This document shows positions 31,841 to 35,563 of a stretch of DNA of 64,000 nt, piece by piece. Position 1 is the stretch's first letter. The number at the start of each line of letters is the position of its first letter. The notes under the pieces were generated by a model. The model did not search any database. It was not told where the DNA came from and saw only the letters and a program-made list of their open reading frames with translations. The translations under genes were made by a program, and so were the position numbers. Source of the stretch: an uncultured Tateyamaria sp. (GTDB lineage: Bacteria > Pseudomonadota > Alphaproteobacteria > Rhodobacterales > Rhodobacteraceae); contig NZ_CANNES010000003.1 in the NCBI RefSeq assembly GCF_947503705.1, forward strand, positions 124,001 to 188,000, given 5' to 3'.

Positions 31841-32128
31841 ATGCGGTTTACACAGGTTCTGATGGCATCAGCCGCGATGACGCTGATGGGGGCCGTTTCG
31901 GCCATGGCAGACACGCCCAAGATTTATCCGGTGCACAGCAAACACAACTATTGCCCCGCCGGCCTGCAGCCGGTGTCGATGTCAGGCGTGATCTGCTGCG
32001 GCAGGCCAAACCAGTCCATGACCTATCAACAGGCCCTGGCGCACCCCGTCGCCAAAAAGCGCGTGCACTACGTGCGCCGCTCCAGCTCCAGCTGCCCTGT
32101 GGGCACCAAGGGCTGCACCTACGACTGA
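31841..32128 (+). CDS. small exported cysteine-rich protein
   Basis: A 95-residue protein with a signal peptide (about residues 1-23, ending AMA). The mature part has five cysteines (YCPAG, ICCGR, SCPVG, GCTYD) and a basic stretch (KKRVHYVRR). No family is recognised; it may be a small periplasmic, disulfide-linked protein. GAGGGAAG lies just before the ATG at 31841. It is convergent with the cold-shock gene. Confidence 0.6.
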   Translation: MRFTQVLMASAAMTLMGAVSAMADTPKIYPVHSKHNYCPAGLQPVSMSGVICCGRPNQSMTYQQALAHPVAKKRVHYVRRSSSSCPVGTKGCTYD

Positions 32129-32571: not shown

Positions 32572-32889
32572 ATGGAAATATACGGTTTAAAAACATGCGA
32601 CACCTGCCGCAAGGCGATCAAGGCGTTGCCGGATGCCACCTTTGTTGATGTTCGTGCTCAAGGGGTGCCTGCGGACGTGATGGCGCGCGCCCATGCGGCT
32701 TTTGGCGCGGCCCTGGTCAACACCCGCTCGACCACATGGCGGGGGCTGGACGCGGCAGAGCGGGCGGCAGACGCCGCCCAACTCCTGGCCGATCACCCGA
32801 CTTTGATGAAACGCCCGCTGATCGTCGATGGCGATCAGCTTTATCTGGGCTGGACGAAAGACGTCCAAGCCGCCCTAGGCGCGGCGTAG
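32572..32889 (+). CDS. ArsC/Spx-family thioredoxin-fold protein
   Basis: A 105-residue protein of the ArsC/YffB group. C9 and C12 lie in KTCDTCRKA; the family uses the first cysteine for arsenate reduction or, in YffB/Spx-like members, for other redox roles. The cis-proline region MKRPLIVDG near residue 80 fits the fold. The arginine triad of true arsenate reductases is not obvious, and no ars genes are nearby, so the function may not be arsenate reduction. It overlaps the convergent DoxX gene end by 15 bases. Confidence 0.85.
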   Translation: MEIYGLKTCDTCRKAIKALPDATFVDVRAQGVPADVMARAHAAFGAALVNTRSTTWRGLDAAERAADAAQLLADHPTLMKRPLIVDGDQLYLGWTKDVQAALGAA

Positions 32890-33420
32890 CGCCCGGTCAA
32901 AAGACAGCGGTCCGGCACCCTTAACCACCAGAACCAAAAGCAAAAATATCCAGAGTGACCGCTGGTCCATGATCAGGCTGCCTGACGGCGCATCAAACCA
33001 GCCGCCCAATACCAGCGCGTCGTCCCATTTGTTGTGCCCATAAAGGTCGGTCAGCGACTGGACCACGATAAAACCGATCATGCCAAGGGCCGACAAGCGG
33101 GTCAGCAGCCCGATGATGATCAGAGCAGGCAGGATGAACTCGGCCCAGGTGCCCAGCGTTACAACCGCCCAATGAAAGACCGAAAGCGCCTCGACGTCAT
33201 AGCCCACGGCCTCCATCGCTTTTGGGAAAATCTGAGCATAGGCACCCAGCGACGGCGTCCAGAGCCCGGAAAACCCATCGCCGAGTTTGGTCAGGCCAGA
33301 GACCCAGAAATAAGCGGCCAGAACGGAGGCAAAGAGGAAACGGGCCAGCGTTGGCAATATCCAATCAACCCGCTCCAGCGGGTCAAAAACGGCGGCGTGC
33401 AAGCGAGACAGGGCAGTCAT
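32875..33420 (-). CDS. DoxX-family membrane protein of the bufferin operon
   Basis: A 181-residue inner-membrane protein with four to five hydrophobic helices (about 22-42, 80-105, 110-130, 155-172). DoxX proteins are quinone- or thiol-linked membrane oxidoreductase parts; in bufferin operons a DoxX gene often comes last. Here it starts 3 bases after bufC and is the fourth gene of bufA-bufB-bufC-doxX, so its expression is linked to metallophore production. A role in electron supply or redox partner for the modified precursor is a guess. The C terminus overlaps the ArsC-like gene in convergent orientation. Confidence 0.85.
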   Translation of the reverse strand: MTALSRLHAAVFDPLERVDWILPTLARFLFASVLAAYFWVSGLTKLGDGFSGLWTPSLGAYAQIFPKAMEAVGYDVEALSVFHWAVVTLGTWAEFILPALIIIGLLTRLSALGMIGFIVVQSLTDLYGHNKWDDALVLGGWFDAPSGSLIMDQRSLWIFLLLVLVVKGAGPLSFDRALRRA

Positions 33421-33423
33421 AAG

Positions 33424-34182
33424 TCAGTCCTTTGGGGTGTTGAGGTGGGTCAATGCGCCCTGCTGCACCAGCAATGTCAGCAGAGGCGAAAGGTCAAAAT
33501 CGGGTGCGCGGGCGACGGCTGCGTCTTGTGCCGCCTCGATGGCGTCGCCATTCAGGATCGCACTGATCCACGCGGTTTCTGCGGGGTCCAGCGGGTGCGG
33601 GATTGGGTCGAACTCGGGCCGTGTGATCAGCACGGATTGTGCTTCGGCACGCGGCTTTGGCGCGCTTTCTTCCATGTTGAACCGCCAGATGTCATAAAGC
33701 GGCCAATCCGAGCGGATCAGGTGCATCGTGGGGGCAAACGTGAGCGTCGCGGCCAGCAGTGCCTCGGGTTGCACAGCGCCAAAGGCATCAGCGGGAAGCG
33801 GTGTGGTATCGGCTGCGTGATAAGAGGCGCGCATTGCGACCTCCAACCGGGCCACGTCTGCGAGGTATCCGATATGCTGCAACGGTTGAAAGGCCGCCAA
33901 AAAGGCAGGCATTTCAGCTCCGTAGTGCATCATCAGGGGTGTGCTCGGTGGGTGCGCGCGCGCAAAAGTCGGGGCAAGCTGATCAAAATTCTTATCGCCC
34001 AGCAATTTGCGCAGCACCGGAAAACTGGCCTTGAGCGCATCGACCAATGCCACTGTCACATTGTTGCGGTAGACGGCAAAACGCTTGGTGATCGGTTTGC
34101 CTTGCCCGATGGTCAGGCCGTTTGGCACGGGTTGCGCCGGGTCCAGCAATGCCGTGCGAAATTCGGATTGGCCACTGTGCAT
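33424..34182 (-). CDS. bufC: BufC/HvfC-type DUF2063 protein
   Basis: A 252-residue protein of the DUF2063 family (annotated as putative DNA-binding, but better known as the partner of DUF692 MNIO enzymes). The N-terminal segment FAVYRNNVTVALVDALKASFPVLRKLLG is the family signature. HvfC/BufC is thought to bind the precursor leader and present it to the enzyme. It begins 5 bases after bufB and ends 3 before doxX, in the canonical operon order. No catalytic residues are expected. Cytosolic by sequence. Confidence 0.88.
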   Translation of the reverse strand: MHSGQSEFRTALLDPAQPVPNGLTIGQGKPITKRFAVYRNNVTVALVDALKASFPVLRKLLGDKNFDQLAPTFARAHPPSTPLMMHYGAEMPAFLAAFQPLQHIGYLADVARLEVAMRASYHAADTTPLPADAFGAVQPEALLAATLTFAPTMHLIRSDWPLYDIWRFNMEESAPKPRAEAQSVLITRPEFDPIPHPLDPAETAWISAILNGDAIEAAQDAAVARAPDFDLSPLLTLLVQQGALTHLNTPKD

Positions 34183-34187
34183 CTGAT

Positions 34188-35048
34188 CTAGCGGTCGGCC
34201 AGCGCGGCCAAGGCTTGCTCGGCTCGCCCTGCCTCATCGCGCAAGCTGGGCCAATCGGGCACATCATTGTCCCATTCAACCAAAAGCGGCGTCGGGCCAG
34301 TAAGGTGCAAGGCGTAATCTAACAGGGTCCAGACAGGGTCGGCCACGGCGCGCCCGTGGCTGTCAATCAATAGCAGGGCACCGTCATCGTCCTGATCTTC
34401 GTCATGGCCACCCACATGGATTTCACCAACGGCATCGGTTGGATAGGCGTCCAGATATCCGGTCGCGGTATAGCCAAGATTGGTGGCCGAGATGAATACG
34501 TTGTTTACGTCCAGCAACAGGCCACAGCCCGTGCGACGCACCAATTCGCTCAGGAAATCGGTCTCGGACCAAGTGCTTTCGGCAAAGGCGAGATAGCTGG
34601 ACGGGTTTTCCAGCAGCATTTGACGGCCCAAGGTGTTTTGCACTTGATCAATGTGCTCCGCCACGCGGGTCAGCGTCGCATTTGTATAGGGCAGGGGCAG
34701 CAGATCATCGAGAAACTCGGCCCCGTGAGTGGACCACGCCAGATGTTCGGAAAAGCTGGCAGGTTGCAGCCAGTCAACCAAAGTCTTGAGCCGCGCCAAA
34801 TGATCTGCATCCAGTGCGCCTTCGCCCCCGATGGACAGGCCAACGCCGTGGACCGATATGGCAAAATCGTCCCGCAGCGCGCGCAGTTGCGCATGCGGTC
34901 GACCGCCATCGCCCATATAGTTCTCTGCATGCACTTCTAGCCATTTGACGGGGCCTGGGTCTGCGCGCAACGCACTGAAATGTTGGGATTTATATCCGAC
35001 GCCCGGGGCGGCAGGCAGGCGGGGCGGGTGTCGCGTCGCGTCCAGCAT
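34188..35048 (-). CDS. bufB: BufB, MNIO (DUF692) multinuclear iron oxidase for bufferin maturation
   Basis: A 286-residue TIM-barrel enzyme that, with BufC, uses an iron cluster and oxygen to modify cysteines of the BufA precursor into heterocycles. The metal-binding residues are all in place: E38/H40/E42-N43, H67, E101-H102, E147-N148, D180-N182-N183, H211 and H215 in EIHVGGH, D229-x-H231 and E258. GGAGGA lies 7 bases before the ATG at 35048. It follows the precursor gene by 68 bases, with a hairpin between, and runs into bufC. Cytosolic by sequence. Related MNIO enzymes act on other precursors, but the DUF2282 neighbour makes the bufferin call strong. Confidence 0.92.
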
Positions 35049-35073
35049 TGCATGTCCTCCGGGGTGGTTGGTA

Positions 35074-35097
35074 CGTCGGGCAAGGCGCTGCCCGACG
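35074..35097 (-). promoter_or_regulatory. intercistronic hairpin between bufA and bufB
   Basis: A 9-bp perfect stem (CGTCGGGCA/TGCCCGACG, 6-base loop) in the 68-base gap. It has no T-run, so it is more likely an mRNA-stabilising or partial-attenuating element than a full terminator; it would favour a higher precursor-to-enzyme ratio. Confidence 0.5.
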
Positions 35098-35116
35098 CAG
35101 TATTCAAATCAGCGAC

Positions 35117-35422
35117 TTACGCTGGCAGATCGCGGCTCTGCTCTTCGAGCGAACCTTGACGTGGTGTGCCATCGGCCATCGCGGGCAGTTCAATTTCGGT
35201 GCACGTGCCTGCGTCAACCAGTGTCCAGGCGTTGCCCTGATAATCGACGGTCGATGTACCGGCGCATGTCGTGCCTGCACCCGCAGCGCAGTCGTTTTCG
35301 CCGGCCAGCGAGATGCCAAAGCATTTTTCTTTGGACGCGGCTTCGGCCGATGTGGTGGCATGTGCGGTCATTGCGGCGGCGACGGCACCAACCAGTGCGA
35401 CTGTTTTGATTGTCTTCGACAT
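35117..35422 (-). CDS. bufA1: BufA1 bufferin precursor (DUF2282), cysteine-containing RiPP
   Basis: A 101-residue precursor. Residues 1-29 are a Sec signal peptide (TSAEA/A), so the product is exported. The mature part carries four cysteines, C34 (EKCFG), C45 (NDCAAG), C53 ([10 protein letters not shown]) and C74 (GTC), in the DUF2282 pattern. Known bufferins bind copper after the MNIO enzyme converts core cysteines to thiooxazole-type rings; which cysteines are modified here is inferred from that family. AAAAGGGAAG lies before the ATG at 35422. First gene of the operon. The tail beyond C74 is acidic and longer than in compact homologues. Confidence 0.9.
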
Positions 35423-35470
35423 CTGAAACTTCCCTTTTGGATATCGGTTGCGTTGTCTTCGTGAACTTTA

Positions 35471-35496
35471 GATAGGCTATGTCGCGGGCAGGTTAC
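35471..35496 (-). promoter_or_regulatory. possible ECF-sigma promoter of the bufferin operon
   Basis: On the minus strand GTAACC (35496-35491) is followed after 16 bases by TATC (35474-35471), about 50 bases before the bufA1 ATG. GTAACC is the -35 box of SigF-type ECF promoters that drive similar operons in Caulobacter; the usual -10 there is CGAA, which is not matched. No sigma or NrsF-like gene is nearby. Confidence 0.4.
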
Positions 35497-35563
35497 CACT
35501 CACGAGCCTGTGTGTCACAGCCCCGTTATGAGATGTCAGAGAACCGGCGGTATTTGAGGGGAA

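Follow-up and report, generated by a model that had tools for sequence, protein, structure and literature searches.

How is a bufferin operon controlled in a genome in which the anti-sigma factor NrsF, part of the sigma-F/NrsF control of its Caulobacter counterpart, is not found? The question is raised by a four-gene operon of the Buf1 (DUF2282) type, bufA1-bufB-bufC-doxX, on the minus strand of a 64,000-nucleotide stretch of contig NZ_CANNES010000003.1 from an uncultured Tateyamaria sp.; this whole stretch is called the window, and all coordinates below refer to it. The genes are one more member of a large known family, and what is new is the control region and the proposed change of control. 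A conserved site upstream of bufA1 and a hairpin between bufA1 and bufB, both missed by an earlier sequence-only reading of this DNA, proved more informative here than the genes. We consider it probable that the locus as a whole is a Buf1 operon serving periplasmic copper buffering, in which a dedicated operator has replaced sigma-F/NrsF control and the hairpin favors the precursor message. The literature searched, which consisted of excerpts and did not include the original bufferin paper, describes no bufferin promoter or regulator and no change of control for this group; all papers cited below were likewise available as excerpts.

The conserved site upstream of bufA1

The first 80 loci were selected as relatives by similarity to the complete window precursor with its tail. 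In total, 79 loci were parsed, including the window; L034 and L056 were dropped because their precursors were not parsed. Alignment of the upstream regions revealed a site of about 33 bp with roughly twofold symmetry and a consensus of approximately TnAC-N6-GTGA-N2-CAC-N6-GTGAnTgG (cTgACg-N5-cGTGAnnCACgnnctCGTGAnTgG as aligned). The window copy, found by matrix and pattern searches, lies at 35496-35528 on the minus strand and is our proposed operator. The site begins 80-166 bp before the bufA1 start codon in 69 of 78 related loci. These loci are the 69 of 78 whose upstream regions scored above 15 with the site matrix (L077, with too little DNA, was left out of this scoring), compared to a score of -0.4 for the best shuffled region.

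We then investigated where else the site occurs. When all 79 loci (631,350 bases) were scanned, the matrix scored above 14 at 70 places, 69 of which precede bufA1 and one of which precedes bufB (L067); the matches on the reverse strand were all the same 70 places read backwards. In GTDB-type genome samples, 65 of 190 class genomes and 85 of 120 family genomes contained DUF2282. A strict pattern search of the 120 family genomes returned 31 sites in 31 genomes, all of them among the 85 with Buf1, and the reversed-pattern control returned 0. Thirty of these sites were fetched: 29 precede a DUF2282 gene and one lies between bufA1 and bufB. In this last locus (L131, genome G251) the strict-pattern site follows a hairpin and a T-run, and a weaker copy stands before bufA1. 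The same split arrangement, with a second site before bufB, was observed in L067 (Actibacterium sp. 188UL27-1). Thus, where the operon is split, each half carries its own copy of the site.

Within the genome that contains the window, the copy at bufA1 is the sole site without mismatches. Allowing up to three mismatches gave 18 matches compared to 13 in the reversed control, and a one-mismatch match (C1:675032), which lies inside an open reading frame (ORF), was set aside as chance. A TAnnnT motif, at the position expected of a -10 box, occurs about 17 bp downstream of the terminal TGG of the site; with a one-base shift, the corresponding candidate -10 box of the bufA1 promoter in the window would be TATCTA at 35469-35474 on the minus strand. 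Because the site lies immediately ahead of the presumed -35 region, the protein bound at the candidate operator is probably an activator, encoded elsewhere. No common regulator candidate was found among the flanking ORFs of the seven loci without a recognized upstream thrS. A LysR-type gene near several loci adjoins what we take to be a methionine gene.

Proposed replacement of sigma-F/NrsF control

In Caulobacter, the corresponding operon is driven by sigma-F from a GTAACC-N16-CGAA promoter and is repressed by the product of CC3252, as described in the excerpts of PMC3511200. A search for NrsF (PF06532) in the genome of the window found no member of this family, and the Caulobacter positive control was recovered. 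We take the CC3252 product to belong to the NrsF family, which agrees with the PF06532 match in that control. Sigma-F control of the window operon was thus rejected, since its genome is without NrsF. The window does have a GTAACC shortly after the site, without CGAA 16 bp further on.

In the 120-genome sample, NrsF was present in 17 genomes; 14 of these carry Buf1, and in 12 NrsF lies within 5 kb of bufA1. Of the 85 Buf1 genomes, 54 carry a relaxed version of the site no more than 500 bp upstream of the DUF2282 core. No Buf1 genome had both elements: 54 had the site only, 14 NrsF only, and 17 neither (Fisher p 7e-8, uncorrected for kinship). The site and NrsF control are thus mutually exclusive in this sample. 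Moreover, the promoter regions divide in the same way. Thirty loci were read for sigma-F-type promoters, among them L188, which lacks upstream DNA. All seven NrsF-linked loci that were read match GTAAC(G/A)-N16-CGnn in the interval from -167 to -201 relative to the core, each with one or two mismatches, and none of the 22 other readable loci has an equally good match in that interval. Two-mismatch matches of this type occur at scattered positions in eight loci without linked NrsF.

From these observations we put forward, tentatively and as a reading that could well prove wrong, that a single-target circuit has taken over from sigma-F/NrsF control in most Buf1-bearing Rhodobacterales. In such a circuit, one regulator encoded away from the operon would act at a near-palindrome of 29-33 bp, present roughly once in each genome at the bufferin promoter and duplicated when the operon splits; the RDLPA tail of the precursor, described below, may have changed along with it.

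Several points weigh against this reading. The site matrix was trained on the same 78 loci that it scored, and nine of them, including the close relatives L011 and L009, fell below the threshold. The candidate -10 box is weakly conserved. Of the 85 Buf1 genomes, 19 have neither the relaxed site nor a linked NrsF, and, among the 54 site-bearing genomes, at least two (G251 and G280) match upstream in the reverse reading only. Some of the genomes assigned to neither class probably carry a site that has drifted, since L178 and L190 (genomes G224 and G246) reached matrix scores of 28.3 and 16.1 though the pattern missed them; L188 had no upstream DNA for this scoring. Elsewhere in the genomes the relaxed pattern gave 80 further matches compared to 48 in the reversed control (the latter counted manually), and additional targets are therefore possible at that stringency. 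In L179, where NrsF is absent, a sigma-F-like sequence with a single mismatch lies at -289.

The distribution of the site and NrsF might also reflect shared ancestry only, with a functionless site inherited once by the lineages that are without NrsF. The genomes are indeed related, the Fisher test ignores their kinship, and matrix scoring found no site in the 29 loci of the class at large, where no score exceeded 4.3 (the scoring being unreliable for L109, read in the wrong frame, and L112, which gave no precursor). However, conservation drops to background around the site, while about 18 of its positions are near-fixed across many genera, and an extra copy arises exactly where a second promoter is needed. 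We consider this explanation improbable. The same copies bear on the proposal that the site is not an operator at all and represents the end of thrS (a terminator or other downstream sequence) or a structured leader RNA, a proposal prompted by the position of thrS directly upstream of the operon in 72 of 79 loci and by the partly palindromic character of the site. L048 carries the site (score 29.7) though no thrS was found upstream of it, and the second copies in L067 and L131 stand in the bufA1/bufB gap, past a terminator-like hairpin. What is conserved in the site is its letters and not its pairings, and the site is absent where NrsF is present, all of which leaves an origin in thrS or a leader RNA with quite a low probability. 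An Rfam scan of the window gave no match and thus points to no known riboswitch. L021 and L073 have the operon next to genes that by eye belong to respiratory complex I, in the place of thrS, and by matrix these two loci lack the site.

The operon, its hairpin and the precursor tail

By gene content, the four genes make up a complete operon for a Buf1 (DUF2282-type) bufferin, of a known and ordinary kind. All four genes are on the minus strand: bufA1 (35117-35422), encoding the 101-residue bufferin precursor; bufB (34188-35048), encoding a multinuclear non-heme iron oxidative enzyme (MNIO) of 286 residues, the bufferin maturase; bufC (33424-34182), encoding its DUF2063 partner of 252 residues; and doxX (32875-33420), the final gene, encoding a DoxX-family membrane protein of 181 residues. 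They are separated by 68 nt (bufA1/bufB), 5 nt (bufB/bufC) and 3 nt (bufC/doxX). We observed bufA1, bufB and bufC together in all 79 parsed loci and doxX, a gene that is frequent in such clusters without being universal, in 76 of them. This gene set of precursor, BufB maturase, DUF2063 partner and DoxX is described as the core of bufferin clusters in the excerpts of PMC12452194.

BufA1 matched PF10048 (DUF2282) at 3.6e-24 and 85 bits (cut-off, 22.4). Its cysteines, Cys34, Cys45, Cys53 and Cys74, are all invariant in an alignment that took in 37 of the 79 sequences. By eye, its N terminus resembles a signal peptide, with a lysine-containing start, a hydrophobic stretch and Ala-x-Ala preceding KEKC. 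BufB matched the MNIO family PF05114 at 2.3e-101 and 338.9 bits and exceeded the cut-off of the NCBIfam bufferin-maturase model MNIO_BufB (NF050167; 364 bits compared to 310); it fell under the cut-offs of the NCBIfam HvfB, ApyH, MbnB and ChrH models. The iron ligands of TglH are given as His71, His107, Glu151, Asp184, Asn187, His216, Asp229, His231 and Glu258 (PMC10880893), and BufB H67, H102, E147, D180, N183, H211, D229, H231 and E258 align with them, so that nine of nine are conserved. BufC matched PF09836 (DUF2063) over residues 5-95 at 8.7e-25 and 87.3 bits (cut-off, 27.2); its alignment took in 45 of the 79 sequences. For the second half of BufC, in which an RRE fold is expected, comparison with profiles of solved structures gave a single weak match, to TglI (E 0.46), and a plain phmmer search with BufC returned a chance match only (E 2.1). 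DoxX matched PF07681 at 6.2e-08 and 33.6 bits (cut-off, 23.6).

The sequence-only reading had described these four genes, at these positions and on this strand, as a complete and tight bufferin operon with a 101-residue DUF2282 precursor bearing four cysteines, an MNIO enzyme with all metal-ligand positions, a DUF2063 partner and a DoxX protein. That description is correct, because the families, the cut-offs, the maturase model and the nine iron ligands all hold. The Rhodobacterales background that it had proposed also fits the relatives closest by precursor, which are Rhodobacterales including Tateyamaria, Thalassococcus and Marivita.

The bufA1 stop codon and the gap to bufB (35049-35119, minus strand) contain a hairpin of 12 base pairs, identified by folding against shuffled sequences (-25.2 kcal/mol; z -2.37; equalled by 4 of 200 shuffles). 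Of the 79 bufA1/bufB gaps, 62 contain a perfect stem of at least 9 bp, compared to 2.4 expected from shuffled gaps, and z was below -2 in 55 of 79. The stem sequence varies between species. We take the hairpin to be a device that would stabilize the precursor message over the enzyme message. A T-run follows it in just 6 of 79 loci, a point against the overall explanation.

In a further step, the acidic tail that follows the fourth cysteine was compared between loci. In the window it comprises 27 residues with a net charge of -4 and ends in RDLPA. The same G-x-L...RD-x-P tail was observed in 78 of 78 relatives, with a median length of 27 and a median charge of -4, a count biased by the selection on the whole precursor. 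The less biased count comes from family loci selected by the core domain alone, where 22 of 28 readable loci end in RD-x-P; this set is the best 30 of 87 core matches listed, of which L181 and L188 were unreadable. At large in the class, the ending was found in 3 of 29 loci, one of them from the same family, and other Buf1 tails are mostly shorter and retain only a GSL-like motif. In the 72 alignable relatives, codon positions 1, 2 and 3 of the tail differ from the window in 17.5, 15.8 and 52.8 per cent of cases, the pattern that selection on the protein would give. The sequence-only reading had suggested that the tail might be a variation of this precursor. A tail peculiar to this organism was rejected, given the same tail across relatives and core-selected family loci. 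Because of these counts the tail is, by sequence comparison, a trait of the clade that appears to be under selection. We would guess that it has a role in recognition by BufB-BufC. Tandem bufA1 precursor genes were observed in L057 and in genomes G196 and G288, and the second copy in L057 has an altered tail ending in SPALDALDRDLPS.

The genome of the window contains one DUF2282 gene and two MNIO genes. The second MNIO gene belongs to a cluster at about 4.4-6.8 kb of contig C7, and its product is also over the BufB cut-off (359.7 compared to 310 bits). The cluster includes a DUF2063 partner (62.2 bits; cut-off, 27.2), and an ORF without a family match lies ahead of it. A very cysteine-rich ORF of 204 residues in the same cluster (848-1462 in the numbering of that locus), with no obvious signal peptide, recalls adjamnio-I precursors, which have 122-293 residues and 8-21 cysteines; adjamnio-I precursors are, however, listed with PME-type 2 partners in the excerpts of PMC12452194.

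Two plus-strand genes were observed next to the operon in the window. An ArsC/Spx-like gene (32572-32889) overlaps the end of doxX on the opposite strand by 15 nt, and 66 of 79 loci contain an ORF of the same cluster. The other gene (31841-32128), immediately downstream of the operon, encodes a 95-residue, cysteine-containing protein whose start is signal-peptide-like and which matches nothing in Pfam or NCBIfam; 15 of 79 loci have an ORF of its cluster close to the operon.

Predicted function and comparison with known systems

For Buf1 bufferins, conversion of the central cysteines into thiooxazoles, a disulfide between the outer cysteines and periplasmic copper binding are described, and the signal peptide is possibly part of recognition by BufB-BufC (PMC12452194 and PMC13097082, as excerpted). 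The modification, the cysteine roles and the copper binding that we propose for this organism are carried over from that literature. By analogy, BufA1 would be synthesized in the cytoplasm as a precursor bearing a Sec-type signal peptide and presented by BufC to BufB, a multi-iron oxidase expected to convert Cys45 and Cys53 into thiooxazoles. After export, Cys34 and Cys74 would form a disulfide and the finished peptide would bind excess copper in the periplasm, with DoxX in the membrane probably assisting on the redox side of the stress. Transcription would start from the promoter just downstream of the near-palindromic operator, which would substitute for the sigma-F/NrsF control of Caulobacter and probably be bound by an activator whose gene lies elsewhere. 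The hairpin that follows bufA1 may yield more precursor message than enzyme message. The product of the operon is thus most likely a periplasmic copper buffer, as far as the analogy carries.

The peptide might instead serve against another metal or oxidative stress, such as gold, zinc, iron or hypochlorite. Buf1 operons are known as gold-induced genes and the Legionella operon responds to both gold and copper (PMC5413113, excerpted), the Caulobacter operon is sigma-F dependent under chromate (PMC3511200, likewise), and DoxX together with the missing Caulobacter-type control would allow another inducer for the window operon. However, binding of both Cu(I) and Cu(II) and a benefit to growth in excess copper are described for the Buf1 product studied so far (PMC12452194, in the portion available), and we regard a purpose other than copper as unlikely.

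Copper as the metal had also been suggested by the sequence-only reading, and this part of its proposal is retained; its term metallophore is not, since the excerpts of PMC12452194 describe Buf1 as sequestering copper in the periplasm and not as a means of acquiring it. A released, methanobactin-like scavenger of copper, which that term and the cysteine chemistry shared by the MNIO enzymes of both systems might bring to mind, is very improbable given a BufB that scores 61 bits on MbnB (cut-off, 325) but 364 on the BufB model (cut-off, 310), a precursor and a partner of the DUF2282 and DUF2063 types, and no uptake receptor gene recognized among the immediate neighbors examined, the ORFs of the window having been scanned in part.

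The window operon was also compared with known systems. The Buf1 operon of Caulobacter vibrioides (CC3254-CC3257, adjacent to sigF-nrsF) has the same four genes in the same order (PMC3511200, from the excerpts), and its DUF2282 core likewise has four cysteines. In contrast to Caulobacter, the genome of the window lacks a detectable NrsF, the promoter region carries the new site in place of GTAACC-N16-CGAA, and the precursor tail is longer and ends in RDLPA. The gold-induced gene (gig) operons of Cupriavidus and Legionella are, like the window operon, bufferin clusters (PMC12452194, as excerpted); the window type is chromosomal and mostly beside thrS, as counted above, whereas the Legionella operon is on a mobile element (PMC5413113, as excerpted). 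Buf2 bufferins and the EGKCG oxazolin/captophorin system (HvfABC, fontiphorin) have in common with Buf1 an MNIO with a DUF2063 partner and the conversion of cysteine to thiooxazole (PMC13097082, in its available parts), but the window precursor is of the DUF2282 type and not of the repeat type. Against the HvfABC models, BufB scored 227.8 on HvfB (cut-off, 360), BufC 51.4 on HvfC (142) and DoxX 29.2 on HvfX (80). Methanobactin (MbnABC) and pearlin (TglAHI) enzymes belong to the same fold family, with all TglH ligands kept in BufB as noted above; they differ in precursor and partner, and the MbnB score stands far apart.

These results concern a copper-stress operon that is spread through abundant marine bacteria, and its compact, near-exclusive site makes the regulator directly findable. 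They present a clean case of a stress operon that appears to have swapped its control system and kept its genes. Moreover, the clade offers a test of the part that a conserved precursor tail may play in maturation.

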